Shown in pieces: positions 26,577 to 63,602 of a stretch of DNA of 64,000 bases (positions within the stretch are counted from its first letter, which is position 1; each line of letters starts with the position of its first letter). Below the pieces are notes generated by a model. It searched no databases. It saw only the letters and a list, made by a program, of their open reading frames with translations, and was not told where the DNA came from. The position numbers and the translations under genes are program-made. Location of the stretch: contig VRMN01000007.1 in assembly GCA_008690995.1 (NCBI GenBank), positions 868,001 through 932,000 of the forward strand. Direction: 5' to 3'. This stretch comes from Porphyridium purpureum. Taxonomy: Eukaryota; Rhodophyta; Bangiophyceae; Porphyridiales; Porphyridiaceae.

Positions 26577-27295
26577 AGTTAAAAGAAAAAGGGACGTGCA
26601 AACGACGGATAATTCCCATTCTGCGATGTATTTGGTATATGTTTTACGCCAAAGCATAATTATGCCCACCTTCAAATTCCTGATGTGAAATCCGGCATTT
26701 AGTATTCAGAATATAAGAGAAATCCGGTGTTTAGAGGACTGGTGTTTTCGTGGATTGTGCCCGTTGTACTTGAGTAAACCGCACGTCTGCGTTTGTGCTG
26801 TGGCGGCTTTCTGCTCCTTCGCTGTGTGTGCGCCTTTCGCCGTACGTGTGTGTCTGCGCGGCCCGCCTTGGCCCGCTGTCACTTCGGGAAGGGGAGATTC
26901 CTTTACAGAGCGAGCCGTGCACGTCTTAGACGCGCAGCTGCATCGAACGGATGTGTATGCGCGGGGGAGTACGCACCTCCGCATGTTTTCGAGATCCGGA
27001 GGTGCGTTCGCACCTGAGATATTTTCACGTGTTTGACGCGCATGGCGTGCGGCACAGCGCAAAAGGCCAGCGTAGCCAGAAGTTTAAAAAGAGTTTCCAT
27101 GGCTTCCCAATAGATGTAGTATTTTTTTCATCTTTCGTTCTCGGTAAGAGGTAGCGTCGGTGACTAAAAAGTCCTTTTGGCTTTTTAAGCTATCCAGCGT
27201 CATTAGGTCAAACATTTAATAGTAGTTTAAGCCCATTTCTTTACTACTAATCCACGGTGGTGCAGTATGTACGTATAGTAAAGTAAAATGGGACC
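26577..27295. other. AT-richer flank with extra copies of the inverted-repeat end
   Basis: Two further copies of the end sequence occur here, AAATCCGGCATTTAG at about 26688-26702 and the variant AAATCCGGTGTTTAG at about 26720-26734. This suggests truncated or nested nonautonomous relatives. No gene was recognised. The base composition is clearly lower in GC than in the genic parts. Confidence 0.45.
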
Positions 27296-27368
27296 ATGGA
27301 TTAAAAGTGTTCCGGTCCGAGAGACGCCCTGGATGTACAGCTAGAGGTACGGCGCCTTAGAATTGTTT

Positions 27369-27415
27369 GAGGTACAGGGTTTTTTTTGCCCACGTGGTTT
27401 TTTACCCTGTACCTC
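27369..27415. promoter_or_regulatory. 12-base GTAC-core inverted repeat in the copia LTR
   Basis: The arms GAGGTACAGGGT (27369-27380) and ACCCTGTACCTC (27404-27415) are perfectly complementary around a T-rich loop that contains a CACGTG E-box. It lies about 210 bases upstream of the TATA box, so an upstream regulatory role in the LTR is plausible. The GGTACAG core is shared with the ISCU upstream array. Confidence 0.6.
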
Positions 27416-28125
27416 TGGTTTGTGCATTGTTGTCTTTCGCCCCGAGGAGCCGAAGTCGCGTGTCCGAGGGAAGCAGGAGCCGCTTGGCGGCCGGCCAGCA
27501 CCCATTGAGCCGCTTGCTGACGTGGCTGGCTGTGGCTTCGTTCTGTGGAACGAACGGAGGAAAGCCCAGCCTTTTGGGAGAAATAATTTCTCCCTTCCGC
27601 GTCAAGGACAGCAAGGACGGCGGGGTATATAATGGGCGCGGGCCTGTGCGGTTCCCCGGATTTTCTTGAGAGCGGAAGAAGTAGAGGAAAAGGGAGTAGG
27701 ACACAGAGAATAAAGGAAGAGTTGTTCTTTGGTGTCGGGTGCCTGGGCGTGGTCGTTGGAAGGCGTGGGGCCTTTTGCTGAGCCTGTGTAGCAGAGCCAG
27801 CAGCACATCGTGTCTGGGGGGTTTCGGTGCTCTTAGAGCACTGAAGGCAGACGGCGGCTTTGTCCGTTACGACACCCTGCCCCTGTCGAGACCGGTGCTG
27901 TCTGTGCCGACGCGAAGGGCAATAGTAGAGGCCCTATACGTTGGATTTTCCACGCCCCGGGTATTCGTCGTCTGTGTTGTGTGCGTCGTGTAGTTGTGTT
28001 CTCTGTGCTGTGTGCGTCGTGTTGCTGGGGTTCGGTCATCTGAGAAGGGTTGTGTCATCCGGGTTCGTGCGCTTGTCATCATCAAGCGTGCGAGAATTTA
28101 AAGTGGTATCATCGCATCGGCGAAG

Positions 28126-29082
28126 ATGGATTCTGAGGGAATGGACGTGCAGGGCCTGCAGGGCGGCGCGTCGTGGATTGAAGCTTTCAACCAGCTTCAT
28201 GCTCGTATCGGAGGACAAGAAATGATGATTGTGCAGCTGCAGGAGGGAAATCGCCTCTTGCAGGAGATGCTGCAGAATGTGATGCATCAGGCATCTGTGT
28301 CAGCTGGTCCCGGCGAAACGGAAAGGACCGTTGCATCGCTGATTGGACGCAGCTTGAGAAAATACGACGGACAGCGCGACAAACTCGTTGTGAACGAGTG
28401 GTTGTCGAGGATGAAGCAAGACTTGGACATGTGCATGCCAGCTGGAGCGCTGGAGTCGCAGAAGGTGATCGTAGCGTCGCGCTTCTTTGAGAAGGATGCC
28501 GCGCTGTTGTGGGCAGCTCGCCCTGAGGAACAGAGGATGGCATTGGCCGAGTCCGGTTGGAATGCGTTCGCGAACTTCGTGAGGACGGCATTTGAGCCGC
28601 CGCAGGCATACCTGACTGCTCGAACGAACTTGTATCAGCTGAAGCAGGGCAAGATGACTGTTGCTGAGTTTGAGCAGCGCCTGAGGATGGTGGCCCTGTC
28701 AGTGGATAGTGTGACGGATGCCGAGCTCAACACCATCTTCACTCTCGGCCTGAAGGAGAAGCTTCGCCTTGAGGTGGCGCGTCAGGACACGAAGACGCTG
28801 GAAGAGTCGCTGAGGGCGGCGTTGGCTGCGGAGCAGGTTGGTAGGTTTGGAGGAGACATGAGGGAGGCTTTTCATGGCGCCTCTAGTCCAAACTACCGGA
28901 ACAGCTCGTCGTATGCCGGGACGGCGCCAATGGATTTGGGCGTCGTGGAGAAACGCCAGCCGGAGAAGCGCAAGCATGCGGACGTGGGCAAAGTCAGATG
29001 CTACCATTGCGGGCAGCGCGGCCACATCAAACCCAATTGCCCAAAGCGGAATGGGCACTTGGCGGGAGGCCCGGAAAACTAA
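28126..29082 (+). CDS. gag: Copia gag
   Basis: A 318-residue capsid/nucleocapsid polyprotein of the copia element. The middle part matches the retrotransposon gag domain (WLSRMKQDLDMCMPAG, LLWAARPEEQ, FEQRLRMVALSV). A CCHC zinc knuckle lies at the end (CYHCGQRGHIKPNC). The start ATG is 22 bases after the primer-binding site. The pol frame overlaps the gag end in another frame, as expected for families that use frameshifting to make pol. Confidence 0.9.
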   Translation: MDSEGMDVQGLQGGASWIEAFNQLHARIGGQEMMIVQLQEGNRLLQEMLQNVMHQASVSAGPGETERTVASLIGRSLRKYDGQRDKLVVNEWLSRMKQDLDMCMPAGALESQKVIVASRFFEKDAALLWAARPEEQRMALAESGWNAFANFVRTAFEPPQAYLTARTNLYQLKQGKMTVAEFEQRLRMVALSVDSVTDAELNTIFTLGLKEKLRLEVARQDTKTLEESLRAALAAEQVGRFGGDMREAFHGASSPNYRNSSSYAGTAPMDLGVVEKRQPEKRKHADVGKVRCYHCGQRGHIKPNCPKRNGHLAGGPEN

Positions 29083-32000
29083 AACCTCGAGGGAGAAGTT
29101 GGGAGGTGCACTCGAGGGGAACGGAACCTCCCGGGATGGGCTTTGTAGGTGAGGTCTGGCGCGCTGATGCGGCGTCGAGGTTGCTCTACAAGCGTGGAAC
29201 TTTAGATGGCGAGTCTGTCCAATTTCTGGTGGACAGCGGAGCATCGCACAATTTTCTTGGATCTCGCTTTGTCGGCAGATTTGAAGGGCGCGAGAACGGA
29301 ATGGTCAAGCTTGCGGGTGGGCAAAGTGTCTTAGTGCATGGCCCGGTGTTGCAGCATGTTGATCTTGGGTTCTGGAAAGGGCCGGTCAAGTTTTATGTCG
29401 GACCGCTGCAAATGGATGCAATTCTCGGGTGGGACTGGCTGAGTCGCGTGAACCCGAGGATTGATTGGCAGAGGGGTTCGATGGACTTGGGACTTAAAAA
29501 TGTGGAAGATTGTGCGATGGTGAATGTCGTGGACGCTCTTTCCGAGTCAAGCGGAAATCAAGCGTGCGATGGAGAAGAGGAGAGTGCCAGTGAAGAGGTC
29601 GAAGGAAAGATGGCCGGGATGGAACATGCGTTGACTCACATGCCGATGCGGGATGATTGTGAGACGTGTGTTGTGGCCAAGATCAAGAGCCGACCAGCAA
29701 GAAGGCTGGAGAAGGACTTGTCCACTTTGTCGTTCAATGACGAAGTTGGGATCGACCTGGTGGAGCCCGGACGTAACGTGGAAGCCATCGATGGGGCGAA
29801 GTACATACTGACGCACATCGATAGAGCGACGAGGTGGGCCACACTGGCAGGATTGAGAGCCAAAACGCATACGGCGGTTGCTGAAGCTTGGACAAGCGTG
29901 CAAGCCGGGCGAGGATGGCCAAAGGTACTGAGGACAGATGATGGAAACGAGTTCAGGGGAAATGTGAGCAATTTGGTACGGGAGAATCTCGTGAAGCATG
30001 AGATTGGGGTCCCACATAGACCAAATAGCCACGCTGAACAGGAACGTTTCCATCATACTTTGAATCAGGGGGTACGAGCAAATCTCCTGCAGTCTGGGCT
30101 GGGAAAGCGGTGGTTTCTGCATGCCGCTCAGCATTTCGTCTTCATGTTCAATCGGCTGCACCCAGACAAGAGGTCTGGGAAGTCTCCGTATGAAATGAGG
30201 TACGGTGAGAGATGGAAGCGGGGGAAGGTAGCAGTACCATTTGGGTGCAAGGTGGTTTTCAAGAATGATCAACCTGAGAACAAGTATGCACCCAGAGGAA
30301 AGATTGGAGTCCTTGTTGGAGTTGCGGAGCATCCGCTGGCAATCTGGGTCCTTCCTCAGGAGGAGTGGACGAGTGCGGCACCGAAGCTGACTCGCACTCA
30401 GGACTTCAAGGCGTTCCCTGAAGTGTTTCCAATGCGGACTTTGGAAACAAGGGATGACGAGGAGGTCTCGGCACGTGAGGGTGAAATCGACTTTCACTCT
30501 AGGCAGGAAGAACCGGATAGTCAAGAGACTATGGTGTTGCCTACGAATACGGCCGAGGCGCGTGTATCCGGGAACTTGGAGGAGGGTGTTCCCCTACCTA
30601 TTGGAAGAAGGGGGAAACGAAAACCCAGGGTATCTTGGAGCCGGGAAGAGGATCAGGCCATCATGGATGGCTTACGGCTCTTTGGCTGGGGGAAGTGGGA
30701 AAGAACTCTGCAAGAATACAAGGCAGTGTTCCGCGATTCAAGAAACGGAAAGGATGTGCGAGCCCGGGCTCATAATATGGGCCTCTCGGAGGAAAATTGG
30801 AGGCAACGCGCAGGAGTTGCTCCAGAAACACCGCAATTGAACTTGACAACTTTGTTGCAGACGAGCCAAGCTCTGGCTTCTTCGGCTGGAAGAGAAGCCA
30901 TGCAAAAAGAAGTGGACTTGATGATCCGATTCAAGGTATGGGATGAGCAACCTATTTCAAGGGAAGAAGCTCTCAAGGTCCCAGGCGCACGATTTGTGCG
31001 GACACACTTTATATTCGGATTGAAGTTCGCTGAGCTTCCGGAGGAGTTTCGCAAGGTCAAGTGTCGGCTTGTTGCTGGTGGAAATAGGATTTGGGATGCC
31101 TCAGGGAAGGTCACTCAGGATGTGTTTGACTATGAGGTGCCCGCGGGCCTGTCTGCGATCAGAATGCTGATAGCTTTGGCCGCTATCCTAGGATTGAAGA
31201 TCGTATCGTTCGATGTGACGTCGGCGTACTTACACGCTGACTTGTCAGGACCACCGACGTTTGCCATGTTGCCCCGACACGTTCCAGGAGGAGGTGATGG
31301 ACTTGTCGTTCGCTTGAGGAGGGCGCTTTATGGCTTGCCAAGAAGCGGGTCTGACTTTTCCCAGGATGCCCGCAGAAGACTTCAAAAGTTCGGGTGGGAT
31401 TTGATTCACGGCGAGAAGAACGTATACGTGAAAAAGATGGCGGGAAGTGCATCTGTTGCACTCCTAGCCTTGTATGTCGACGATGGTCTGCTCGCGTGTG
31501 TCGAGAAGGATCGGGGTGAGATATTTCGAGAGTTGAGGTCAGAGTTCCTCATTGAGAAGGAGCCGGAAGTCCTCTCGGAAGGAGCCCCGTTAAGGTTCCT
31601 AGGACTCACGATCTCGGAGTCGGCGACACGGTTTTCGTTGGGTCATGATCACTACCAAGCTTTGGTGGTGAAGGAATTCGAAGAAGAACTTGGGCAGGTG
31701 CTGCGAGCGGTGAAGTCACCAGGTGAGAAGATGAATGCTGACGCTGTATTGGATGTTCAAGTCGAACATGGGTATCTGAAAATACGCGAGCATGTTGGGC
31801 GGCTGCTGTGGTTGGCCAGGACGGTCAGACCGGATCTCTCCTACGCAGTTGGAGTGGTGGCTCGGTACGTGGATAGCTGGAACGTAGCAGCTGAGAGACT
31901 CCTGGTTCGCGTCATGCAATACTTGAAGGTTCCTCGTGAACTGCTTGAGTATTTGCGGATGACGTCATTGAAGGTCGGTGACGTAAGCGCCTTGGGCTAT

Positions 32001-32498
32001 GCTGATGCCGACTTTGCTGGATGCCCGGAAACGCGCAAGTCAACGTCTGGAAGAGTGACGTACTTGGTCGCGGGTGGAAACAAGTATCTGGTCGACTGGA
32101 GCTCCAGAAGGCAACGCTTTGTGAGCTCTTCGACCTCTGAGTCTGAGATGGCCGCTCTGGAAGAAGCGGTGCAGTTGTCTCTGTTTCCGGCATTGTCGGT
32201 TTTTCGAAGCGTGCAGGAGGGTGATTATGTGTTGACCCTGCTTTGTGATAGTCAAGTTGTTCTCCGTGCGGTCGAGATGGGCTATTCGCCAAAGTTGCAT
32301 CACATGGCAGGGACGAGAGCCACGGACTTGGCGTGGATACACCAAATTTGCGAGAAGCAAAAGTTGGTGAGATTGGAGTATGTGAGGACGGGAGAAAACG
32401 TGTCCGACTTGATGACAAAGCCTTTGTTTCTGGAAGGTCACAGCAGGTGTTGGAACATGTTGCGCGTCCCTCAGATCGAAAGGAGGAGCATGGATTAA
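28998..32498 (+). CDS. pol: Copia pol with an inserted Myb/SANT-like domain
   Basis: A polyprotein of roughly 1,150 residues in copia order. Protease has FLVDSGASHNF. The integrase zinc region and DDE core carry HIDRATRWATL and LRTDDGNEFRGN. Reverse transcriptase has VSFDVTSAYLHADLSGP, LYGLPRSGSDF and LYVDDGLLA, and RNase H has LGYADADFAGCPETRKSTSG. Between integrase and reverse transcriptase, at about 30615-30800, sits a Myb/SANT-like helix-turn-helix domain: WSREEDQAIMDGLRLFGWGK, then WERTLQEYKAVFRDSRNGKD. The frame looks whole and its stop falls just inside the downstream end repeat. The first methionine is not certain because pol is probably made by frameshifting from gag. Confidence 0.92.
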   Translation: MLPLRAARPHQTQLPKAEWALGGRPGKLKPRGRSWEVHSRGTEPPGMGFVGEVWRADAASRLLYKRGTLDGESVQFLVDSGASHNFLGSRFVGRFEGRENGMVKLAGGQSVLVHGPVLQHVDLGFWKGPVKFYVGPLQMDAILGWDWLSRVNPRIDWQRGSMDLGLKNVEDCAMVNVVDALSESSGNQACDGEEESASEEVEGKMAGMEHALTHMPMRDDCETCVVAKIKSRPARRLEKDLSTLSFNDEVGIDLVEPGRNVEAIDGAKYILTHIDRATRWATLAGLRAKTHTAVAEAWTSVQAGRGWPKVLRTDDGNEFRGNVSNLVRENLVKHEIGVPHRPNSHAEQERFHHTLNQGVRANLLQSGLGKRWFLHAAQHFVFMFNRLHPDKRSGKSPYEMRYGERWKRGKVAVPFGCKVVFKNDQPENKYAPRGKIGVLVGVAEHPLAIWVLPQEEWTSAAPKLTRTQDFKAFPEVFPMRTLETRDDEEVSAREGEIDFHSRQEEPDSQETMVLPTNTAEARVSGNLEEGVPLPIGRRGKRKPRVSWSREEDQAIMDGLRLFGWGKWERTLQEYKAVFRDSRNGKDVRARAHNMGLSEENWRQRAGVAPETPQLNLTTLLQTSQALASSAGREAMQKEVDLMIRFKVWDEQPISREEALKVPGARFVRTHFIFGLKFAELPEEFRKVKCRLVAGGNRIWDASGKVTQDVFDYEVPAGLSAIRMLIALAAILGLKIVSFDVTSAYLHADLSGPPTFAMLPRHVPGGGDGLVVRLRRALYGLPRSGSDFSQDARRRLQKFGWDLIHGEKNVYVKKMAGSASVALLALYVDDGLLACVEKDRGEIFRELRSEFLIEKEPEVLSEGAPLRFLGLTISESATRFSLGHDHYQALVVKEFEEELGQVLRAVKSPGEKMNADAVLDVQVEHGYLKIREHVGRLLWLARTVRPDLSYAVGVVARYVDSWNVAAERLLVRVMQYLKVPRELLEYLRMTSLKVGDVSALGYADADFAGCPETRKSTSGRVTYLVAGGNKYLVDWSSRRQRFVSSSTSESEMAALEEAVQLSLFPALSVFRSVQEGDYVLTLLCDSQVVLRAVEMGYSPKLHHMAGTRATDLAWIHQICEKQKLVRLEYVRTGENVSDLMTKPLFLEGHSRCWNMLRVPQIERRSMD

Positions 32499-32668
32499 AA
32501 GCGTTCCGGTCCGAAACCCCCTGGGTGTTTGTCGTCTGTGCTGTATGCGTCGTGTGGTTGTGTTCTTTGTGCTGTGTGCGTCGTGTTGTTTGGGTTCGGT
32601 CATCTGGGAAGAGTTGTATCATCCGGGCTCGTGCGCTTGTCATTATCAAGCGTGCGAGAATTTTAAGC

Positions 32669-33051
32669 GGACCGTTTGTAAATCGAGTTCTTAAACCGCG
32701 CGCCGAGGAACCGAGGAACCGAGCAACCGAGGAACCGAGCAACCGAGCAACAGATAAAGCGGTGCGCGGCTGGCGTGTTGCGCGTGGCACATGCCCCGCG
32801 CACGCAGGGATGATGGGGAGCCCGTGCTGCGGCACGCACCAGCTCCGCGTGCGCCGCTCCTTGCTGGGCGCGTGGCTGCGGTTGATTCGGCCTCGTCCAG
32901 GAACGACTCGTCGGAACGCTTCATTGAAAAAGGTCGGATGAAAACTCTTTTCTCGTGGGAGCGTGGATTGCGGATAGCAGGCGCGCAATGAGGCTAGGAA
33001 GCCAGCGCGCACGAGTTTCCTTTTATCAAGTGCGGGAGCTCTCTGTCATGA
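32669..33051. repeat. Intergenic region with an ACCGAG minisatellite
   Basis: At about 32705-32755 there is a run of AACCGAGGAACCGAGC-type units of 8-9 bases (GAGGAACC and GAGCAACC alternating). The rest is GC-rich intergenic DNA down to the stop of the DUF1772 gene, with no recognised gene. Confidence 0.7.
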
Positions 33052-34216: not shown

Positions 34217-36460
34217 TCAGCGCCGGGCCGCGAGAACGTCCTGAAGCTCACGCACCTGAGCTTGGAGTTTTCGGATGTTTTCTGATTTTCGTCGGTCTCG
34301 CAGAGCCGCCTCGTCACGTATCGGCTCAGTGCGATCACCTTTCAATGGGAAGCCGCGACAGATGATGATGTCGAGATCTGCTTCGCACGGACGCAACTCG
34401 GGGCGGTTTTTAACGGCCACGTAGCGCTGTAGAATGTCAAGCAGCTCGGCAAGCAGGGCTGCGGAAAGCTGGGGCGAGTACGCATTTCTCAGCAGCGTTG
34501 CAGCTAGTGCCGAATAGGTCATGTACCCCAACGGACGGCGCTGACGCCGTGCGTACAGCGTGCGGAAGATACCGACGGCGTCAGCCAGCTGGCCGGCCAT
34601 CCCCAGCTCGTACAAGTACGCCGAACAGACATCCATGTCTGCCGCAAACGTACGCGCGCAGAAAGTCTTGAAAACCTTTGTGCTCAGATCAAACCTTCCG
34701 ACCCGCGCAAACGTATGGATGTACACACTAGCTGCAAACGCTGCCACATGAGGGTCCACCATGTCCACGGGCTCATTACTAAGCACCAGCTGCACCGCCC
34801 TGTCGATTGCATCTTCACCATCTTGGACGCTTTGCTCCACTAACGCTTCGTACGCGAATGAGCGCAGAATTCGATTGGCGCTCTTGCTGCCGTGCTCATG
34901 GTGACATGTATCTGCAATGCGAAGGGCCAAAGATAGCTGACCTGTGCACGCCGACATGTATACGACGTAGCTCGCCATGAGTGGATCTTCGAGCCGCCAA
35001 TAAAAGAACACCTTCTGCGCGCTCTCTGCCACGAGCTTCGGTTCGAGCTCCGAGCCATCCGCGAACCGCACACGCAAGTATAGAGTATGAAGATAGTCAC
35101 GCAGAAGGGGCACTCGATCTCGCAGGTTGAATCCAATGTTACGCGCTGCAGTGACAATCTGACACAAAGGGAGCAGCTCGCTGGACGCGCCTCGATCCGC
35201 GCAAATTTCAAGGTACTCATAAATGAGATTAGCATGCAAAACATTGCGCATCTCGATAGTCCGCAGCATGTGTGTCCGAGCCTCTTCTAGACAGCCACCG
35301 CGAATCAAGACACTCGCTAGTGCGAACAATACTTCTTTCGATGGAACCGTTCGATTCTTGTCGTACACGCGCATGATCCAGCGCGCCTCGTTCGTGATTT
35401 CATCAGCACCCTCCTGGTTGCTTCCTGCAGCGTCCTTGTCGAGATGTACCAATCGAGCTGAAGTGAGATGGCACGTCTTGGCACCAGCTTCGAGAAGCGG
35501 TTTGGAGAGGATACGCTTGATCTCAAGAGGTGTCGCGCGCAGCGAGCGCCACACGCGCCATGCACAATCAGGCAGATCTAGCATGAGAAAGTGGCGCATG
35601 AGTTCCAAAAACGTTTCCGGCATATGCATCGAATGTCCGTGCAGGGCTCTCATCTCTGATACGGTCTGCAGCATGAGCTCATGACGCCCGCACTGACCAA
35701 AATAGACCGCAAGATGACGATACACCACACGGCTAAACGTGTGCTGGCGCTCAGTCTGCATGTACCGCACGACTGCGCGCAAAATGTTGACCTTGTAACC
35801 CGCCAAGCGCGCCAGCGGAATCAGCAACAATACCTTCTGATCGTCGAGCGCCGCGCGATCGGCGCGCGCGCGCTGCAGAGCGCGAATGGCGAGCTGCAGT
35901 CGCACAGACCCTGGCACGTCGTGCGTCTTGCGTGCGATGCGCAGCAGAAATGAAACGGTCCACTCATCGTACGGCGCGCATCCTCGCTCGGCAAGCACGC
36001 GCCGAAGACGCCGCATGCAGCCGTCCTTCTTTTCCAAAACGTAGCGCAAGCGATTGTTCAGTCGTCGTGTGTTTGCATTGAATTTATCCGGGTCAAAGCT
36101 TTTTCGCGGCAGCTTTCGCGGCGCTCGCGACTCATTCCGCTTTGCCAGCTTTTCACGCTTGCGCCGAGCCTTGTAATGCAATGCTCGTGCTCCATAGTAC
36201 TCAGTTGCGCTCCCAGCTGCGTAACCAAGCGGAGCCCCGTACGCGCTTCGCAGAGGGTGCGCTACTCGTCGCAGCATCTGCCCAATGCCCACATGCACGG
36301 CGGTGTCGATGCCGTGCTTCATTGCCGTGAAGAAGGCGAAGGAGCGGATCTCACGGTGCGCTGCAACGACACCGGACGGTCCGACGTTCGCTCGCACCTC
36401 CGCAGCATGTGTGCATCGCCACACGGACGCGCAGAGCCGCCGAACCGCGACCACATTCAT
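34217..36460 (-). CDS. PPR-like organelle RNA-binding protein, paralog 1
   Basis: A 747-residue protein from ATG 36460 with an Arg-rich, acid-free N-terminus (MNVVAVRRLCASVWRCTHAA) that fits a mitochondrial presequence. Helical pair repeats resemble pentatricopeptide repeats: SKEVLFALASVLIRGGCLEE then ARTHMLRTIEMRNVLHANLI, and CSAYLYELGMAGQLADAVGI. It shares a collinear architecture with the genes at 37242, 50387 and 53166: a block of LRIARKTHDVPGSVRLQLAI type, then an ALQRARADR block, then LMRHF or IRHF-type blocks, then the C-terminal YELGxAG motif. PPR proteins bind organelle RNA and guide its processing; the target here is unknown. A coiled-coil-like end (LQAQVRELQDVLAARR) closes it. Confidence 0.75.
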   Translation of the reverse strand: MNVVAVRRLCASVWRCTHAAEVRANVGPSGVVAAHREIRSFAFFTAMKHGIDTAVHVGIGQMLRRVAHPLRSAYGAPLGYAAGSATEYYGARALHYKARRKREKLAKRNESRAPRKLPRKSFDPDKFNANTRRLNNRLRYVLEKKDGCMRRLRRVLAERGCAPYDEWTVSFLLRIARKTHDVPGSVRLQLAIRALQRARADRAALDDQKVLLLIPLARLAGYKVNILRAVVRYMQTERQHTFSRVVYRHLAVYFGQCGRHELMLQTVSEMRALHGHSMHMPETFLELMRHFLMLDLPDCAWRVWRSLRATPLEIKRILSKPLLEAGAKTCHLTSARLVHLDKDAAGSNQEGADEITNEARWIMRVYDKNRTVPSKEVLFALASVLIRGGCLEEARTHMLRTIEMRNVLHANLIYEYLEICADRGASSELLPLCQIVTAARNIGFNLRDRVPLLRDYLHTLYLRVRFADGSELEPKLVAESAQKVFFYWRLEDPLMASYVVYMSACTGQLSLALRIADTCHHEHGSKSANRILRSFAYEALVEQSVQDGEDAIDRAVQLVLSNEPVDMVDPHVAAFAASVYIHTFARVGRFDLSTKVFKTFCARTFAADMDVCSAYLYELGMAGQLADAVGIFRTLYARRQRRPLGYMTYSALAATLLRNAYSPQLSAALLAELLDILQRYVAVKNRPELRPCEADLDIIICRGFPLKGDRTEPIRDEAALRDRRKSENIRKLQAQVRELQDVLAARR

Positions 36461-37241: not shown

Positions 37242-40025
37242 TTAGGGGCTCTGGTCACGAGTCGCCAGTAGCTGCCGTAACCGCTCGGCAACTCTGGTGA
37301 GTGCCATCTTGGGGTCAGCTTGCACGGTGATTTCTTCAAGCACGCGGTCTATCTCCGACCGCTCCGTCTGTGGGAGGGACGCGCGGGTCTTTGTTTTCAC
37401 AAGGCGTTTGATTTCCACCGGTTGTGGCGACTCTGACAGGATACGAATACGCTCATTCACGTCATTCAACACTTGCATTAGCACTTCATTAGTGAGCACT
37501 TGCGTAGGAGTCGCAGTCACGTCATGGTCGATTGCCGTCAAGCGCTTCTGCGCAAACGAACATGCGGCGAGGACCACTGCGCCTATCGAGATGTATACAC
37601 GCGGGGCGAGCGCGGATGGGTCATTCGCGCGCTGCTTTACAGACTGGAACACAGCCGCAGCGTCTGCGGCTCGCCCTGCGGCGCCCAGCTCATACAACAT
37701 TGCCATATGAACCTTTCGCGCGTGTGCACTGTGCTGCGTGGCGAATGTGTCATAAGTCTCGCGGAACGCATCAAGCCGTCCCGCACGGCCAAGCGCGTGA
37801 CAAAGTGCTGCGCCCAGGTCGGCATTGCCAAATAAGACGTCATTCTTTTCCTTGTGCTGCACAAACACAGTCGGGAGCAGCTGCTCGATTCCGCACAACG
37901 CGACCAAAGCGTCGTAGACGGCATCGCGTAGCGGTTTCTTATTGGTCAGAGCTCGTGCGTGGTATTCACGCACTACGGTGAGAACCATCGTCGCATCGCG
38001 GGCACGTGCGGCCAGGCACGCGGTGCCATTCGCGAACTCCTGATCTCGAGCGTACATGAACCAGTGCATATAAACGCGGCGGGCCGCATGCGCGGCTTCG
38101 ATGGCTGCCGGTCCGTCGAAATGTCGCTTGGTAACAGCCATGTGCAAAGTGTTCATGTACAGGCGCAGCACTTCTCGGCGCTCCACTTCCAGAAAGCCCA
38201 ATCGTGGCCGGCGCACGAAAGTTCCGTGGCTCTGCTCTTCTGTTGGGGGCAGAAAGCCACTGCTAGCACACAACAAGTCGGCAAAGGGGAGCAGCTCGTG
38301 AGCTTTGGCGGGATCTTCAGCGCACGCTGCAATGTACATCTTACTCTGATTAATGTCCAATCTGAGGTCGGATTGCAGCAACCAATGCATGTGGGCTCTC
38401 GCTTCGGCCAATTGACCTGCGCGAATCAATACCGATGAGAGCAAGGTGAGCTCGAGCGGATCTGGTTTGAAACGAACGTCTTTGCTGTCACGCTGTTTAA
38501 GTTCTGTCCCGATGTCGTCGCGACTTTGTTTCGAGTTTCTCTTTGAATTCTCTTCGTCTGAGTCCACGCTTGCCCGAGATCCTGCTTCCACTTTCTCACG
38601 CACGAGCCCTCGCTTTTTCGCGCGCGGCTCTGATGCATGATTTGCCTCTGCTTGAACCTCAAATTCTGGCACGTACTTTGGAAGTTCACTTGTGGGCTTG
38701 CGTTCGTTGTCGCGTTCGTTGTCGCGTTCGTTGTCGCGTTCGTTGTCGCGTTCGTTGTCGCGTTCGTTGTCGCGTGGTTTCCTCACTGGAAGCCAGTCTT
38801 TTCGAGTCAGACGACGATTGTCTCCGGATTTGCCGCCGCCGGTATCACCTGACTTCTCCAGCGCTCGCAAGCGCTGTGACAGCCAGCGTGCCTCGTCTAG
38901 CATTTGGACAGGTGCATGATCATTAAGCGCGCAGCACCGCACACCCCAGCGAAGCAACGTGGCATCAAAAACCACAGGGTAGGGCGGCGCTCGCTTCTTC
39001 TTACCCGAAGCCGAAATACCGCGCAGGGTGCGCCAAATGTGCCATGCAGCATCCGGCTCTTTGTGTAAGAGAAAGAACTCCATGAGCTCGATAAAGCGGC
39101 CATTTGAACATAGCTGAGGATACACGCGCAGAAACTCATGCAGAGAGTCAGTGAGCAGATTGTAGCGCTTGCAGAAGCCAAAATGACGAATCAGCTCACG
39201 GTAAACAAGTGGATGCAATGGGGCTCCGTGAAACCACACGCGTTGCTGTTCAAGCATGGCGTTCTTGAGCGCAATCATTACGTTCGCCTTGCGTAAGGGC
39301 AAGGCGAGTCTGCTGACCTGCATGAAAGTATACCATTCGCAGGGCACGCGGTCCGCGCGGGCATTCTGCAGTACACGAAGCACGAATCGAAGTTTGAAGT
39401 GTGCCCTACGTTCAGGAAATTTGTGCGCGATTCGAAGCAAGAGCTTCACAGCCTCTGCGTCGTACGGAACCGCACCTGAATGGCCCACAATGGCATTCAC
39501 AAGCGCAAAGTCATAATGCTTCCGTCCCAGAAGCATTTTAAGCGCGTCGTTCCGTTTGACACTAGCACTGATCGTGAATTTGGTGGGGCTTTCGCTTTGT
39601 TTGCGACGTGTCGCACGGCGAGTCTCAGTCATCGAGTCTCGCGCAGTGTGTGCGCCTCCAATAAGGCGAAGCACAGACTTCCTGCTCCGCTTGACGCGCA
39701 CGGGCTCCATCGGCATTATTTGGAGCTTGGCTTCATAGTCATCACCTAGCATTCCTCTCCCGGTCGGCATGTTCAAGCGCTCAATCAACAGGGACCACGT
39801 GCACAACTCGGCACGCGGCGCGACCCGAGGGGCTGCAGAGTGCGTTCCATCGATTCCAACTCGACAAAGACCGCCGTGCATCCACAAGCTGCGCGCGCCG
39901 AACGCGCGGCAAAGGCTGCTTCCAAACATGCTGCGGCTTTGCGCCGGGACGTCCGCGGCGCACCACGCTCGCCTCAGGGCCCATCGCTGCATCACACGTC
40001 CGCCACCGCGCAACTTCAGCGGCAT
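37242..40025 (-). CDS. PPR-like organelle RNA-binding protein, paralog 2, with DNER repeats
   Basis: A 927-residue protein from ATG 40025, the longest of the four paralogs. Its N-terminus is Arg-rich (MQRWALRRAWCAADVPAQSR near residue 11) and fits organelle import. PPR-like repeats include LELTLLSSVLIRAGQLAEAR and MAMLYELGAAGRAADAAAVF. An insertion after about residue 400 carries six tandem RDNE units and charged linker sequence absent from the paralogs. That insertion accounts for most of the extra length. The C-terminal region ends in a helical segment (LTRVAERLRQLLATRDQSP). Function is inferred from family only. It lies about 800 bases from paralog 1 on the same strand. Confidence 0.75.
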   Translation of the reverse strand: MPLKLRGGGRVMQRWALRRAWCAADVPAQSRSMFGSSLCRAFGARSLWMHGGLCRVGIDGTHSAAPRVAPRAELCTWSLLIERLNMPTGRGMLGDDYEAKLQIMPMEPVRVKRSRKSVLRLIGGAHTARDSMTETRRATRRKQSESPTKFTISASVKRNDALKMLLGRKHYDFALVNAIVGHSGAVPYDAEAVKLLLRIAHKFPERRAHFKLRFVLRVLQNARADRVPCEWYTFMQVSRLALPLRKANVMIALKNAMLEQQRVWFHGAPLHPLVYRELIRHFGFCKRYNLLTDSLHEFLRVYPQLCSNGRFIELMEFFLLHKEPDAAWHIWRTLRGISASGKKKRAPPYPVVFDATLLRWGVRCCALNDHAPVQMLDEARWLSQRLRALEKSGDTGGGKSGDNRRLTRKDWLPVRKPRDNERDNERDNERDNERDNERDNERKPTSELPKYVPEFEVQAEANHASEPRAKKRGLVREKVEAGSRASVDSDEENSKRNSKQSRDDIGTELKQRDSKDVRFKPDPLELTLLSSVLIRAGQLAEARAHMHWLLQSDLRLDINQSKMYIAACAEDPAKAHELLPFADLLCASSGFLPPTEEQSHGTFVRRPRLGFLEVERREVLRLYMNTLHMAVTKRHFDGPAAIEAAHAARRVYMHWFMYARDQEFANGTACLAARARDATMVLTVVREYHARALTNKKPLRDAVYDALVALCGIEQLLPTVFVQHKEKNDVLFGNADLGAALCHALGRAGRLDAFRETYDTFATQHSAHARKVHMAMLYELGAAGRAADAAAVFQSVKQRANDPSALAPRVYISIGAVVLAACSFAQKRLTAIDHDVTATPTQVLTNEVLMQVLNDVNERIRILSESPQPVEIKRLVKTKTRASLPQTERSEIDRVLEEITVQADPKMALTRVAERLRQLLATRDQSP
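38702..38775. repeat. 12-base tandem repeat encoding (RDNE)n
   Basis: Six near-perfect copies of GTTGTCGCGTTC on the plus strand, read on the minus strand as Arg-Asp-Asn-Glu inside PPR paralog 2. The unit length is a multiple of three, so copy-number changes keep the frame. Confidence 0.9.
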
Positions 40026-50386: not shown

Positions 50387-52522
50387 TTACACCTGTCCCT
50401 GCATCCATTTGCGCAGCTGCTCTGCGCCACGCCCGTTAGTCCACTGTATTTGCTCCCTTTTAGGACCCGGATCAGGTCTCGCTGGTTCTTCCTTGGTTCC
50501 ATTTTCCCCTACGAACAATGTTCCGGCACCCTTGTTCCCATCCAATTGCTCACCCGTGAGGTAGTATACGTACGCCAGCAATCGAGAATCCTTGATTCTG
50601 TACCGTGTGACCAAGCGCCGCGCAGCGTCGGCCGCGGCATCAACTTCGAGCCGCCCATCATTCACAGACGCACCCAGCGCGCTCAGGTATGCTCGCAGAA
50701 CACGCATGCGCTCATGCGCGTCAGTTGCTAAATGAAGCGCTGGATGCGCAAGAACGTCAGCCAGCGGCAGCAGCTGGTCTGCCTTGAGGCGACGCGAGCA
50801 ATGTGGCAGGTAGTGGAAAATCTTGCCCTCGTGCAGCGTATAACCCAGCTCTATTATCCAGTGCATGGTTGCACAAGCCTCAGCAAAATCGCCACCATTG
50901 ATGTAGACCGATGTGAGTGCATGCAAGTCCGTGCTCCGCGGGATTATCGACAGCTGGCGATACTTCGATACTATGTACCTGGCCTCATCGACCAAATCGT
51001 CGCGCCAAAAGCAAACCGACACTCCGCAAGCCAGTAGCTCGCCATCGATCACAACGCGTTGCGCAAAGCGCGGCTCATGCAGCAGCTTCCAGATCTCATA
51101 CGCTTTCTCCCCATCCCTGTGTTTCAAAAACGCAAGCAGCACGGCCGTAAAAGTCTCAGTGTCCGCGGTACCATGTACACGCACCTGCTCCTCAAACATC
51201 AATCGGACGAGCTGAGGGCGGTTGCAATAGCTGAAATGCCGGATGAGACCTTTGTAGGCGAAGTCGTCCAACACAGATCCCTGCGCCTGAATGAGGTTCT
51301 TCACGGCTAAAACTGAGTTCACCTTGAGACGACCTTTAGCCAGCGGCAGAAATTGCGCAAGTGTGTACGAGTTGAGCCTTGCTCTGTCCGCGCGGGCGCG
51401 CTGGAGCATACGCAGCGCGAATCGATAGCGCTGAAACGCACTAGCGTCTTTCTCCGGGGCATTCCGAGCTATACGCAAGAGAAAGTCCAGCGTCCACCGG
51501 TCAAACATCACGGCGCCGGCGGCACGCACAGCGCGCCGCGCATCGCGCAGATCTGCCTGCTCATTTAGGAGCACACTGAGCTTCCCGTTCAACGCCCGGG
51601 TGGCACTACGCTCCTCTTGTGAACGCCGTATCAGCGATGCTTCCTCCGGAAGCTCGAGATTGTAGTTGGCTGCCTCCGCTCCCGCTTTTGATGACGCCGA
51701 CCGCGCACCGATGTGCCGCGCGTGCAGGCCGGGCTGCAGCGACGCATAGAATGGCGCTGGCAATAGCCGCAGCCGCACCGGGCGCGGCTTCAAAGACGCA
51801 CACAATTCCAGCAGGCGACCCACGCGCATCACGCCAGTCCTCACCATCCAATGCTTGCGAACAACCTGGAGTATACACGCTGCTAGCCTCCCGCCGCCTC
51901 TATCTGCCAAAGCGCCGCTGGTTCTGCCGAGCTCGCGGCGCCGCGCGTTTGCCTGGCTGGCTTTACTGGCAACTGTGAACACTATCGTCGCTCCAAGCGC
52001 TGCACGCACGGCTCGCTCGTCGCGGAAAACGATGAGCGGCGCGTCGCCGTGCGGCTCGTGATTCAGCTGGTGCAAGCGCGCAACTTGCAAGCCGGGCCGT
52101 GGGGTGACGTCGGGGCAGTCAGGGCCAAAACCGCGAGGAATGGCAAGGCGCGTAGTGCCAGCTCGGTGGCTGTCGCACTTGCACGAGATGAGTCTTCGAG
52201 GAGCAGAGTCGGCAGCGGCGCGATCGCGCTCAGGTCGCGCTCTGTCGGCGTCGCTGGGCGCGCTTGCGCAGAAGCCAGGGATGTGCACGGGTCGGAACCG
52301 TGCATACACGAGTATGGTACTTGATGTGTGCGCGTCTGCGCGCGGGAGGTGAGAATCAGCTGCCATGGTATAATCGTTTGCATCGGTGACACGTTGTCTA
52401 CGGGACCTTGCGTTGAGAATTTTTTCCTGGCGTCCACGTTTCACGTGGCCAAGTTGAGCAACTAAGAGCGTGGCGCCCGATCTGCTTGTCGCTAAGCAAT
52501 CTGGTGCTGCGACGACTCGCAT
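50387..52522 (-). CDS. PPR-like organelle RNA-binding protein, paralog 3, short form
   Basis: The frame opens with ATG 52522 (711 residues). The first 225 residues show no similarity to the paralogs, and a second ATG at 51847 begins a better import signal (MVRTGVMRVGRLLELCASLK), so 51847 is the likelier start. Shared blocks include WTLDFLLRIARNAPEKDASA, FALRMLQRARADRARLNSY, LIRHFSYCNRPQLV and DLHALTSVYINGGDFAEACA. The protein stops shortly after the block RLLAYVYYLTGEQL, about 250 residues before the end of its paralogs, and ends instead in a charged tail (GPKREQIQWTNGRGAEQL). It lacks the YELGxAG C-terminal motif. This is either a real short form or a truncated copy. Confidence 0.7.
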   Translation of the reverse strand: MRVVAAPDCLATSRSGATLLVAQLGHVKRGRQEKILNARSRRQRVTDANDYTMAADSHLPRADAHTSSTILVYARFRPVHIPGFCASAPSDADRARPERDRAAADSAPRRLISCKCDSHRAGTTRLAIPRGFGPDCPDVTPRPGLQVARLHQLNHEPHGDAPLIVFRDERAVRAALGATIVFTVASKASQANARRRELGRTSGALADRGGGRLAACILQVVRKHWMVRTGVMRVGRLLELCASLKPRPVRLRLLPAPFYASLQPGLHARHIGARSASSKAGAEAANYNLELPEEASLIRRSQEERSATRALNGKLSVLLNEQADLRDARRAVRAAGAVMFDRWTLDFLLRIARNAPEKDASAFQRYRFALRMLQRARADRARLNSYTLAQFLPLAKGRLKVNSVLAVKNLIQAQGSVLDDFAYKGLIRHFSYCNRPQLVRLMFEEQVRVHGTADTETFTAVLLAFLKHRDGEKAYEIWKLLHEPRFAQRVVIDGELLACGVSVCFWRDDLVDEARYIVSKYRQLSIIPRSTDLHALTSVYINGGDFAEACATMHWIIELGYTLHEGKIFHYLPHCSRRLKADQLLPLADVLAHPALHLATDAHERMRVLRAYLSALGASVNDGRLEVDAAADAARRLVTRYRIKDSRLLAYVYYLTGEQLDGNKGAGTLFVGENGTKEEPARPDPGPKREQIQWTNGRGAEQLRKWMQGQV

Positions 52523-53165: not shown

Positions 53166-55535
53166 CTACGGGGATGCGCTGTTGTTACCACTGAAAGAGC
53201 GGGCTTGTGACGCCCGAAGCTGCTGCCGAATGTGCTGTAGTTTGGCTTTGACCAGTCTCAAGTAATTTGTCGGCCTTTGAAGGTGCTGCTGCTTCGCTTC
53301 TTGGCGGGCGCGCCGCTTGCGCTCGGACTTGCGAATCTTAAGTTTGTCGCCCTCGAGAATTTCACGGATCATATCTTCCCGAGTTCGCTGCTTTTTCACC
53401 TTCTCGGTCTGTTTTGGGACTTGCGGTTTGTCCTCCCGTCCTACAAAGTCCTTCAGATGCTCAATCATTCGATCCACCGTGGACAAAGACAGCGCTGCAT
53501 CCGACGGGGCATGATTGCCACTTCTGCTCATCGGAAGGTTCTCGAGCACAATCTTTCCAAGAAGAGCAAATGTTTGGGGATTGGGTGCCAATGTGTCCTT
53601 GTTGCGCACATCAAGCAGTGATTCGAACACAGCAATCGAATCCGCGGCGTGCCCCGCCTTGCCAAGTTCCTCCATGTATGCGTTTGAAACAGCAACATCA
53701 CCGCCATAGTCACGCTGAAAGGCATCGAACAGCTCCCTGCATATGTCCAAGCGACAAAGCCGGCCAAACGAGTGGATGTACTTGATAAAGAAGGGAGCGG
53801 TGCACGAGGCATTCAGTGGCTCAATGCCTTCAGCCTTGCACATGAGCGCCAGCACGGCAGGTAGACGTGATTCCTTGATACCATGCTCGACTAGCGCTTC
53901 CAAGGCAAATCGATTCAGGAAGTAACGTACAACTGCTGAAGCTGCTGGTTCCTTGCCGCGAAGGTGATCAAGCTGCGCGTGTGCCGCTTGTAGAGCTACA
54001 TCAATATTCCCTGCTCGGCACGCAATGGAGACAATGTAGCTCGATAGGACCTTGTCCTTGAATTTCCAAGTCTCAAAGATGCGAAGCGCACACTCAGCCA
54101 CGTCGCTGATCGATTCGGCTAGCCGACCATTCGAAATATTCAAGGATAAAGCTTCAAGGTACGCGCGCAAAAACATGAGTCTTTTCTTTTCGTCACTGCA
54201 CAAGCGCACTGTGTCAATCAAGACATCGCTTAGGGGCAACAGCGTATCGCAAAGCGAATGGTTCGTCGATTCTGCCTTTAAACACGCACGAAGATATTCG
54301 TACAGCTTGAGCTCGTGAAGGACGTAGTCCGAGCGGGCAATCCATTGCATGTATTCTCGCGCGACGTCAAATTGCGCAGCACTGATGTACACTGACATGA
54401 GGATTTGCAGCGTTTGTAAATCTGGTGTGACATTGAGCTCCTTGTACTTGGTTGAAATCCACTCGGCCGCGCGAACGTCGCCCGCCTTTGCACAGATCAA
54501 TGCGCCAGTGCTCAGCAGCTCAGCGTTGACCACTGTCACCTCCGAGAGCACGGGCGAATGCAACATATTCCACACCTCAGTCGCAGCAGCAGCGTGGTCC
54601 TCACGCAATAAGAAGCGCAACAGAAAGCTTGCAACTGCTGGTGTGCTGGACTGATGAACACGCATCATCTCTATGACTGCTTCATCCCGGAGCTCACGTC
54701 GATCGCAATGTTCCCAGTGGGCAACAAGCCAGTAATACGCGTCTGGTTTCAAGTCTTGCGGCTTCTCCATACGCTCCTTAATCATACGCACCAGTATGAG
54801 AATCAAGGTCACCTTGCGGCCTTGCTTAGCCAGTGCCACAAAGTGAGCCACAGCGTACGAGTTGGGCACAGCTATGTTGTGCTTGCGAGCTTGTTGTAAC
54901 ATGCGCACGGAAAACAGGAGTCTGGCATGAAATGGAAAGTTCGACTTGAGTCCAACACACATTTCGCGCCTTGTCATGCGCCTCGCGAGGACAAACGATG
55001 CGTCCAGTACAAATGAAGTGAACGGCACCCTCGTCGTTTGAAGCAGCTTGCCGATTTTCTGAAGGCCTCCGACTGCTTTCGGATCGGTGATCGCAGCAAA
55101 CAACGTCTTCCCTAGCGCGGCGCTCTGGGTCTGTTGAGCCTGTCGGTCGTCAATTTGCTGCGGAGATCTACTGATGGTTGTCGCCGAACGGGACAGTCTT
55201 GTAGAGTTAATTGAAGCGCCTTTTCCACGTCCTGGCCTCGACGTTGTCGCCGCCTCCTCGGACGTCTCTGAGGCATGGGCATGATCTTTTCTGGAAGATG
55301 ACAAGACAGGACCGCTTGAATTGCGATCACTGGCAATGTCCCGGCCTCTGCCCTGCGAACTCGCAGTTTCTTGGTTTCCGTCTGACTGATCGTTTGCTTG
55401 ACCGCATACGGTTGCGCGACCTGGCGCAGTTCGCTTCCGCGCTCCCGCAAGTCGCTGCGGGAAAAGAGCGACGCATCGCCACTGTGGAACGCTGCCACGC
55501 CCCCACGTCGAAATTGCGGTCAAACCGGCGACCAT
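53166..55535 (-). CDS. PPR-like organelle RNA-binding protein, paralog 4
   Basis: 789 residues from ATG 55535; the frame is open further upstream to 55766 but has no earlier ATG. The N-terminus (MVAGLTAISTWGRGSVPQWR) fits a mitochondrial presequence and is followed by a Ser/Gln-rich low-complexity linker. PPR-like helix pairs include LQTLQILMSVYISAAQFDVA, REYMQWIARSDYVLHELKLY, KDKVLSSYIVSIACRAGNID and SNAYMEELGKAGHAADSIAV. The C-terminal end is strongly basic (KIRKSERKRRARQEAKQQHL), fitting RNA binding. It is collinear with paralogs 1 and 2 over the whole repeat region and with paralog 3 over its N-terminal two thirds. Confidence 0.78.
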   Translation of the reverse strand: MVAGLTAISTWGRGSVPQWRCVALFPQRLAGARKRTAPGRATVCGQANDQSDGNQETASSQGRGRDIASDRNSSGPVLSSSRKDHAHASETSEEAATTSRPGRGKGASINSTRLSRSATTISRSPQQIDDRQAQQTQSAALGKTLFAAITDPKAVGGLQKIGKLLQTTRVPFTSFVLDASFVLARRMTRREMCVGLKSNFPFHARLLFSVRMLQQARKHNIAVPNSYAVAHFVALAKQGRKVTLILILVRMIKERMEKPQDLKPDAYYWLVAHWEHCDRRELRDEAVIEMMRVHQSSTPAVASFLLRFLLREDHAAAATEVWNMLHSPVLSEVTVVNAELLSTGALICAKAGDVRAAEWISTKYKELNVTPDLQTLQILMSVYISAAQFDVAREYMQWIARSDYVLHELKLYEYLRACLKAESTNHSLCDTLLPLSDVLIDTVRLCSDEKKRLMFLRAYLEALSLNISNGRLAESISDVAECALRIFETWKFKDKVLSSYIVSIACRAGNIDVALQAAHAQLDHLRGKEPAASAVVRYFLNRFALEALVEHGIKESRLPAVLALMCKAEGIEPLNASCTAPFFIKYIHSFGRLCRLDICRELFDAFQRDYGGDVAVSNAYMEELGKAGHAADSIAVFESLLDVRNKDTLAPNPQTFALLGKIVLENLPMSRSGNHAPSDAALSLSTVDRMIEHLKDFVGREDKPQVPKQTEKVKKQRTREDMIREILEGDKLKIRKSERKRRARQEAKQQHLQRPTNYLRLVKAKLQHIRQQLRASQARSFSGNNSASP

Positions 55536-57650
55536 ACTGGCGCTGCGCGGGGCGCGCGGACAAGGCACGGAGAAGTTTGGCCGATGAGTTCTGCATGCGG
55601 TCCAACGCAGCCGACGCGTCAGCTCGATTTGTGCAAGCAAGCGAGACTGCTGCGCGCTCACACGAACAGATGCCCTGACAAAAATGCGACCCAGCTCCAA
55701 ACTGGTTGCTGCTCGAACCGGCTGTGAGGATCGTATGCGCGGTCCGTGCCCGAGTCGTGATTTCAAGCGCGCGGAGACGAAGGGTGCGGCCGAGATGCAG
55801 CGATGCGCTGCGGCATGTGTGGAGTCGGGAGTAACGTAAAGAGAACTAGCATGCTTGAGCGGGACGCGGTGTTGGTCGAGGCTGTGGCTGTTCTGGCAAT
55901 AATGCCCAAACGCTCTACTTTTTCGTCGGGTACTATAGGATGGAATTAGAGTTAGATTCTGGTGTCGTCTGTAGCCTGGAGGCAGTGAAGGAGACGAGAA
56001 AGAACTCCTGGAGAAAACCCGGCTCTGGAAGACAGCTGGTATCGTTCACTCTGAGTCTGCTTCTGGAAGAGTGGATGAGTGGTAGAACCATAGGACACCA
56101 GCTTCAGCCATTAAAGATACAAGCCTTTCGTACCTCTAATTAACCGAAGCCATCCTACTTCGACATTATCTTAGCGGCAAACCATGGCGCGAAGAAAGCC
56201 ACTCATGAAGGAGCTAGAATTTCCTGAGCTCGCTGAAACCCTCGTTAATGCAGCGTCGCGTTTCATCCCATGCCAGACGGCCCTTTACAGGTTCGCTGAC
56301 ATATTCAAATGCCCCTCACGCAGCTTTCGCTCGCTGGCGTCTCACCTTGAAAAGCTTCAAACATCGCGCACGTCAAATCTACTCAGACTAGCATCCGCTT
56401 CAACTTCATCATGACACTCTATTCTTCCTCTTCCTCATCAGCTTCTCTCGACTGTCTGTCCGCCAACATTAACCCTTGCGAGGAGCGTGTCCCTCCAGCT
56501 GACCATGGGCGACTTTGAAGCCGCAGTGATGAAGATTGAGTACTGACAGTTGTAACTCTGTCTTGTCAACCAATTGTTGCCCGTGTGGACCTTGACATTG
56601 TCCTTCAAAAGAAAGCGACACCACGCTCCCAGTGAATGTCAACAAGATTATCAAAAAAGCCCAAAAACCGGTGAGAACCTAGGTCACCATCGGATTAAAG
56701 CTGCTTTCCATTACGTAAGCTCGAATCGGAAGCCCTTTATTCATCTGAGGTCTTCCATCATTCTCCCACAAGTGCTCATTCCAGCAAGACGTTGTTCCAT
56801 CGGATGATATTTTCAGTGCGGTGAGGACCTCGTCATGATAGATTAGTTTTATTTTTTTCCCCTTGGCGTCCTTCAGTGAAATGCTAAGAACCGATACGCG
56901 TCCTGGTGTGAGACCAAAGTCCTTGCTTTGGGTAGTGAACAATCTCAATACCTCCGGAAAAGAACCAGCCGTGTTGCTTGCTATCGCAGGGAAAGGTTAT
57001 GTGCTCATGGATACGTCTAATCCAAGTCTTTTAAATCTACACGCCAGTGTGGAACATGATGGGTCCCCTGCTGTGTTCGGGACTTTCCGTAATAATCCTT
57101 GCAAGACACAATGTGAACATGTTGTAAGCAAATGCGCACATGACTCCTTCAACCTCGACAATAAAAGTCGTCCCTAGACTCGGTGTGCAATGCTCTCCCG
57201 GCCGAAATGTCCAACGAATGCCGGTCCGTATAAGTGTCCCTTCTTTCTCTCAACACTTGTACTGAAAGCTCTTCTTTTCAATCTGAAGCAGCAGCCCACA
57301 TGTCACGAACCGTGCTGGCCCAGGACACAGCGGCACACCCAACAGCAAGCCAAGCGGCACACGCACGCACACAAGCTGGACAATCCACGCAACCAAGAGG
57401 AAACACAAGACACCCGCAGCCAACTGGACCTGCGGCAGGCAGGAAACCCGGAACCAACGACGCTCACGCACGCTGTTCACACGCAAACAGCCAAGAGCAC
57501 TCACACACGGGACCGACAGAACCAACCAAGAGCAGACACACGGGAAAGACACAGCCAACCAAGAGCACACGCACGGAGCAGGCACAGCCAACCAAAAGCA
57601 CACACACGGAAGACGCGCGTAACGGGGGAACCAGGCGTCCGCTGCCCAAC
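55536..57650. other. Paralog 4 upstream region and unassigned sequence, with a tandem repeat
   Basis: No gene recognised. Short frames occur at 55940-56143 and 56679-57177 without family likeness. At about 57505-57620 an imperfect tandem repeat of about 30-36 bases (units containing CAGCCAACCAAGAGCACACG) is present. It produces the Thr/Lys/Pro-rich plus frame there, which I regard as non-coding. Confidence 0.5.
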
Positions 57651-63031: not shown

Positions 63032-63602
63032 CATGCTTTCTGGAAACAAGCACACTCAACGACGACAACGACACAAACAGCGAGTCTCCGCTGCTCACAC
63101 TCTCGAACAGCTGCGCGCAACACGAACGGGCTTCGATTGCCCTCACGAACACGAACCGACACACGAAGCAGTCCTCTCACTCACACACACGCACAGCAAT
63201 CCGCTCACGCACACACAACAAAGCACACAGCAATCCTCCTCTGTTGCGCTGGATGGGGAGCGGCCCGGGCCTTTGCACTGGGGCGGGGATTATAGATGCG
63301 ATCTTGTATGGAGGTGTTCGGCGCCTACCTTCGCAAAGGTGGTCGTGCGACACTAAGATGAATCCTAGTGAAGGCTGACCGTTACGGCTCTTGCCTACTA
63401 ATACGTGCTAAGGCAGAGAGCGAGTCCGCCGTCAAGGCCTAGGCCTATCGTACAGCCAAGACTGAGACCCGCTTCCACCCGTCGCACCCTCCGGATCGAC
63501 TTACTCGAACCCCCTTACCCGCAGACTCTCCCACCCAGGCAACCCCAGAGAAACTCTAAGAGAACCTTAGAGCAACCCCAGGTAACCAGCGATGATACCA
63601 AA

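Follow-up and report, generated by a model that had tools for sequence, protein, structure and literature searches.

The window (the whole 64-kb stretch of DNA analyzed here) carries on its plus strand a Ty1/copia LTR retrotransposon (Pseudoviridae): the pol order is protease, integrase and reverse transcriptase (RT), the latter of the RVT_2 type (by Pfam, with rve under its cut-off), and LTRs and a 5-bp target-site duplication (TSD) are present. The features of the element and of its target site are as follows (window positions):

27278..27284, minus strand: target word of the window copy, ACTTTAC read outwards (GTAAAGT on the plus strand), 6 of the 7 bases of ACTGTAC
27285..27289: 5-bp spacer between the word and the TSD
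27290..27294: 5' TSD, GGGAC (3' copy CGGAC, one mismatch)
27295..28103, plus strand: 5' LTR, starting CATGG and ending AAAG, its edges placed from the TSDs of other copies and the internal repeat
27335, 27372 and 27406: three one-mismatch copies of ACTGTAC in the 5' LTR, ahead of the TATA-like sequence
27626, plus strand: TATA-like sequence in the 5' LTR
28104..28115, plus strand: TGGTATCATCGC, abutting the 3' edge of the LTR, primer-binding-site-like in sequence and taken by us to be the primer-binding site
28126..29082, plus strand: gag, with Retrotrans_gag, Ty3_capsid and a CCHC knuckle (Pfam)
28998..32498, plus strand: pol ORF, 1166 aa, in the -1 frame relative to gag, its stop codon within the 3' LTR
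29196..29447, plus strand: aspartic protease, pol aa 67-150 (PF13650 / PF13975)
29790..30023, plus strand: integrase core rve, pol aa 265-342 (E 2.4e-4, below the Pfam cut-off)
30627..30800, plus strand: predicted Myb/SANT domain in the integrase-RT linker (Pfam match 30627-30776)
30990..31682, plus strand: reverse transcriptase RVT_2, pol aa 665-895 (Pfam, 62.1 bits)
32479..32488, plus strand: polypurine tract AAAGGAGGAG
32489..32667, plus strand: 3' LTR, with an internal loss of ~630 bp relative to the 5' LTR
32668..32672: 3' TSD, CGGAC

A simple repeat search had returned an LTR of 155 bp, a value ruled out by the ~800-bp LTRs of other copies and arising because the 3' LTR of the window copy is internally deleted. 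The LTR of the family spans CATGG to TTTAAAG; its CATGG...AAAG ends are not the usual TG...CA, and a sister family (see below) has CGTGG...CCAAG. At one locus (L108, contig C43:4078880-4080171) LTRs of the family stand in tandem with an identical 16-bp spacer, flanked by two full copies. The gag of this copia element (28126-29082) matches Ty3/gypsy-type capsids (Retrotrans_gag 41.9 bits, Ty3_capsid 34.1 bits). Elsewhere in the window, a Ty3/gypsy-type element with long open frames (pol 1163 aa, gag 275 aa) occupies 58851-63055 on the minus strand, and four long minus-strand ORFs (34217-36460, 37242-40025, 50387-52522 and 53166-55766) look like paralogues by eye, with an LQRARADR-like stretch in common; no Pfam match up to E 0.01 was found for 34217-36460 and 37242-40025.

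Between rve and RVT_2, the pol ORF encodes RVSWSREEDQAIMDGLRLFGWGKWERTLQEYKAVFRDSRNGKDVRARAHNMGLSEENW at 30627-30800. A Myb/SANT domain between a copia integrase and RT was the core of the original prediction, and the peptide was found present and in frame. In the profile search proposed with it, PF00249 passed its cut-off (24.4 bits) on the 120-aa linker (27.5 bits, E 3.5e-6) and, for the window copy, in a six-frame scan of the genome (22.16 Mb, 46 contigs; 28.7 bits, E 3.5e-5), but stayed just below it on the whole 1166-aa ORF (23.7 bits). Among solved structures, TRF1 was the best match of the linker alone (phmmer against PDB, E 0.001), and a telobox/TRF-type domain was the best match (5e-9) of a joint profile that combines this linker with those of other copia groups and two non-copia ORFs (see below). 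The telobox-like part is not YKAVFRDSR, to which the likeness had been ascribed, but NGKDVRARAHNMGL, which directly follows it: the counterparts of this stretch in two Myb ORFs of the genome that lie outside copia are VDLKDRARSLRL / VDIKDRCRNLKL, and the joint profile pairs it with the region of the last TRF1 helix. The telobox helix has the consensus VDLKDKWRN, which is absent from the window linker, where KDVRARAHNMGL takes its place. In the window linker, both this consensus and the third tryptophan are degenerate. AlphaFold models of the linker from one and three input sequences consisted of low-confidence helices (mean pLDDT 50 and 53) and none of the 33 Foldseek matches of the first model had E <= 0.001, so the fold assignment rests on the sequence profiles; by these profiles, the location of a Myb/SANT domain of the TRF/Myb kind in copia pol is confirmed. 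No chromodomain was among the Pfam matches of the window pol up to E 1.

At least 15 full copies of the linker, at least 96% identical, stand in open frames of 1188-1217 aa, and three further Myb-linker copies are frame-split; the DNA genome searches scored the best 40 of 49-53 candidates, and the copy counts are lower bounds. Amino-acid relative to silent changes per site over 15 copies came to 0.43 in the Myb stretch (only 10 changes), 0.35 in the integrase part and 0.13 in the fetched RT part; the open frames and the ratio of the Myb stretch agree with the claim that the domain has been under selection. The proposed survey of other copia copies found Myb-like linkers not only in copies of this family (hereafter the Myb family) but also, at the same pol position, in three further copia groups of the same genome (L069/L070, L071 and L074/L076, on contigs C1, C43 and C45), whose RTs are only ~40% identical to that of the window element; for L071 the RT side alone is visible, the open frame beginning just ahead of the Myb-like domain. 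Singly these linkers scored 14-20 bits in Pfam, below the cut-off; their joint profile matched c-Myb (E 5e-6) and the telomeric factor trf1 (E 5e-5) in PDB, and a profile built from them only matched the window linker at E 1.9e-14.

Outside copia pol, Myb ORFs were found at L072/L073 (contigs C10 and C2; 17.7 and 18.3 bits, under the cut-off) and L075 (contig C1; 34.7 bits), carrying the telobox-like VDLKDRARSLRL / VDIKDRCRNLKL; the L072 type is present at two places in the genome. Because a profile of these non-copia ORFs matches the window linker (E 1.3e-14), the copia linker domain may plausibly derive from a host-type Myb gene, and the ORFs themselves are possible donors of the domain or possible host binders of ACTGTAC. 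At the protein level, a search with the linker region retrieved three proteins, all from Porphyridium purpureum, and one with the Myb domain alone retrieved no candidate. The RT region gave 24 matches, with P0001 belonging to the Myb family and P0002 and P0003 to the sister; a Myb scan of eight of the 24 pointed to P0004 only (P. purpureum; 16.8 bits, below the cut-off). For 13 others Myb is absent from the precomputed Pfam lists, which can miss the domain, since they omit it for P0001 too.

The sister family (e.g., L034) is close to the window element in its enzymes (protease 60%, integrase 74%, RT 70% and RNase H 72% identical) and differs in the linker: no match to the Myb domain was found there, and the sequence reads LDRRIDALRAREAELEKEIEALKVRV with a leucine every seventh residue, which is leucine-zipper-like by inspection. 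The simplest history would be an old Myb linker that was replaced in the sister.

Insertion sites of the Myb family were collected from the edges of copies and solo LTRs in two genome searches (best 40 of 49 candidates each). An exact 5-bp TSD was seen in 16 of 26 site rows, and C18s adds one more. After removal of duplicated flanks (C40 and C41, with the flanks of C33; C3b, with the 5' flank of C29 and the 3' flank of C3a) and of half-sites whose LTR edge was missing or internal (C25s left, C40s left, C2a right), and with C20 and C1t added, 25 independent sites remained, seven of them one-sided. The word ACTGTAC was first spotted by eye in 3' flanks, before the systematic scan; in a scan of all 7-mers by offset over 24 sites, ACTGTAC at offset 5 came top with seven sites, against a maximum of three in 200 shuffles that keep base content only. 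At a spacer of 5 bp beyond the TSD, the word was exact at seven of the 25 sites, matched at six or more of its seven bases at ten (the window copy among them) and at five or more at 15, while any other spacer from 0 to 30 bp gave at most two, three and five sites, respectively. Under a null taken from the window with its two retroelement stretches excluded (0.00023, 0.0024 and 0.020 per site for the three grades), the binomial p of the enrichment at spacer 5 was ~1e-20.

The word always reads outwards, on the 3' side at six of the ten good sites and on the 5' side at four (window copy included); the four 5'-side cases, whose flanks were examined after the word had been spotted, fit the mirror-image expectation. 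Outside the word the flanks of the ten good sites are unrelated (largest pairwise identity 45%), and one of them, C20, has no matching duplication. In leave-one-out scoring, spacer 5 was the best of 31 spacers for 11 of the 25 sites, and at 8 of the 15 sites outside the word definition it was in the top three. At 10 of the 25 sites fewer than five of the seven bases match, and C1s, C25s and C1t, each with one side known, match zero. Irrespective of spacing, exact ACTGTAC lies within 50 bp of 11 of 23 Myb-family sites. Of the seven exact sites, five extend the word to AACTGTAC, in agreement with AAC(T/G)G, the core of Myb sites in animals. The proposed map of insertion sites revealed insertion at a fixed distance from a word, ACTGTAC in register 5 bp beyond the TSD, as a preference and not as a strict specificity.

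The sister family behaved differently in register. Among 19 of its 21 sites (C43_3087 and C3_6 were dropped, their LTR start missing), exact ACTGTAC lies within 50 bp of 11 (expectation 0.019 per site), with distances and orientations that vary; at spacer 5 the word was found at none of the 19, even allowing two mismatches, and no sister site ranked spacer 5 first. An unrelated copia with a 1426-aa frame (gag_pre-integrs, rve and RVT_2; no Myb match) served as control: of its 28 loci, five lacked an exact tail and the remaining 23 yielded 19 distinct 3' flanks (the one side used), with ACTGTAC at spacer 5 in none, exact ACTGTAC within 100 bp in none and within 300 bp in two. Attraction to ACTGTAC is common to the Myb and sister families, whereas the exact register accompanies the Myb linker; since sister sites also lie near the exact word, the attraction does not need a Myb domain.

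By analogy with chromodomains, the original prediction was that the Myb domain could steer integration to telomere-like or promoter-like sites. The insertion map bears out a sequence preference that fits such steering, with the Myb domain as the reader being what we infer from it. Telomere-like targets were not found: the word is ACTGTAC, not TTAGGG / TTACTCTAGGG-type repeats, and some target sites lie within ACTGTAC-rich repeats. Telomere-like sequence was seen elsewhere in the genome. Two of 20 contig-end stretches of 250 bp (L088 and L091, at the ends of contigs C8 and C44) carry TTACTCTAGGG / TCTAGGGTTA-type repeats, and the TTACTCTAGGG / TTAGGG-type arrays there and at L202, in the flank of a sister copy on contig C3, are candidate telomere or subtelomere repeats of the alga. 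At L112 (contig C1:2394291 onwards) a Myb-family copy ends inside gag and is fused directly to a GTTACTCTAGGGTTAGGG-type repeat, as if telomere-like sequence had healed a broken end. On contigs longer than 500 kb, the nearest contig end is no more than 100 kb away for 9 of 17 Myb-family insertions, 5 of 22 sister insertions and 4 of 16 insertions of the unrelated copia family, counts that support no conclusion because contig ends need not be telomeres.

ACTGTAC occurs 12 times in the 64-kb window against 3.3 expected from dinucleotide shuffles, and 11 of the 12 copies are outside ORFs of at least 180 aa. A NifU-like gene and a heme-oxygenase gene each have a copy upstream on their own strand, at 274 and 161 bp, respectively, and of eight Myb-gene loci two contain the word, in one case upstream of the ORF; these are too few for a claim. 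ACTGTAC is likely a putative promoter or chromatin element, and the suggestion of promoter-like sites holds as to the over-representation of the word and its position mostly outside ORFs, its promoter role being a deduction from these. ACTGTAC is flagged here as an over-represented word in a red alga.

Our preferred reading is that the Myb linker probably reads ACTGTAC and docks the integrase, setting the cut edge 5 bp from the word. A captured single Myb/SANT repeat in the linker would bind ACTGTAC in chromosomal DNA, and the integration complex so docked, its Myb domain presumably staying on the integrase, would perform strand transfer with a 5-bp stagger, the edge of the cut lying 5 bp away from ACTGTAC. 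With a 5-bp TSD and a 5-bp spacer, the word centre is ~11 bp, or one helical turn, from the cut centre. The intasome would present two integrase ends that are equivalent and both place a Myb domain on flanking DNA, and one good word would suffice; because either integrase half could dock, the word may lie on either side of the element. As a best guess, the sister would be tethered by a host protein on ACTGTAC, and its register-free landing near the word would be as expected if such a tether is present. The wider proposal, on which our judgment is evenly divided, is that of a self-reading LTR retrotransposon whose sister swapped the reader for a zipper-like stretch and became loosely addressed through a host protein. 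If true, copia integrases would have in this linker an address tag of natural origin that can be exchanged.

A host protein could also explain the Myb family itself: sitting on ACTGTAC, and perhaps of the Myb/telobox kind, it would pose the integrase, with the Myb domain of the element contacting protein or chromatin in a SANT-like manner. That the Myb-less sister is drawn to ACTGTAC too (11 of 19 sites within 50 bp), that the word is over-represented in the window and that telobox-like Myb ORFs outside copia pol exist (L072/L073, L075) all speak for such a protein; yet base-pair accuracy of the register in the Myb family, with no register in the sister, is easier to obtain by direct contact, and the best matches of the linker resemble DNA-binding Myb/TRF domains and not histone-binding SANT domains, so we regard this explanation as unlikely. 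Considerably less likely still is that the catalytic or C-terminal domain of the integrase sets the register and the Myb domain serves, say, nuclear import or LTR transcription. Integrases do have weak sequence preferences, and because of the three one-mismatch words in the LTR ahead of the TATA-like sequence the Myb domain could act there. However, the sister integrase, 74% identical, lacks the register at all 19 sites, and the contact zone of an integrase does not usually reach a 7-bp word at a distance of one helical turn.

It is hardly credible that word and insertions are associated only because copies landed in ACTGTAC-rich repeats or because flanks were duplicated. Some sites are in word-rich repeats (an array next to C40s; repeats at C29 and at C1), and duplicates among the flanks were merged (C33/C40/C41; C3b), but the ten flanks counted after this merging are unrelated outside the word, as noted above, and the spacing is exact, with other spacings low in the same flanks. 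Direct reading of ACTGTAC by the Myb linker remains the explanation we favor. With a natural family that shows apparent direct sequence reading beside its integrase, and a close sister that differs in the module and in which the register is absent, it can be tested directly whether the integrase-RT linker is an address module that can be swapped, and sequence-directed integrases gain a natural point of departure.

In most descriptions, LTR retroelements select their sites by way of host proteins or chromatin marks. Telobox Myb proteins (TRF1, TRF2 and TBP) provide the best solved-structure matches of the linker; it differs from them in an altered recognition-helix region (KDVRARAHNMGL) and in its word, which is ACTGTAC and not of the TTAGGG type. 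Among integrases, the C-terminal targeting domain of Ty1 binds the Pol III subunit AC40 and that of Ty5 binds Sir4 (PMC9673352, PMC5911963). Ty1 and Ty5 have in common with the Porphyridium element that the domains follow the copia order and that a targeting segment lies on the C-terminal side of the integrase, before RT; theirs is a short peptide acting on a host protein, whereas the Porphyridium element has a folded-type DNA-binding repeat and an exact word. The CoDi-A Ty1/copia elements of diatoms, with a putative chromodomain at the integrase C-terminus (PMC2774666), are alike in being copia integrases with a captured domain and differ in that domain, the Porphyridium pol carrying Myb with no chromodomain match. 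A GalEa-like copia clade has been reported in Porphyridium cruentum (PMC3587641). Among the matches listed from open-access titles and abstract starts there was no report of a Myb domain in LTR pol.

The R2 non-LTR retrotransposon uses a Myb domain to help find its target, which is a set distance away from the cut (PMC10499050). The Porphyridium element resembles it in having a Myb domain and a fixed interval between target and cut, here as a preference and with reading by Myb presumed; R2 is unlike it in having no integrase or LTRs, in target-primed reverse transcription and in an added zinc finger. What appears to be new, by comparison with these systems, is a copia integrase-side targeting module that is a DNA-binding-type domain, together with an insertion register exact to the base pair.
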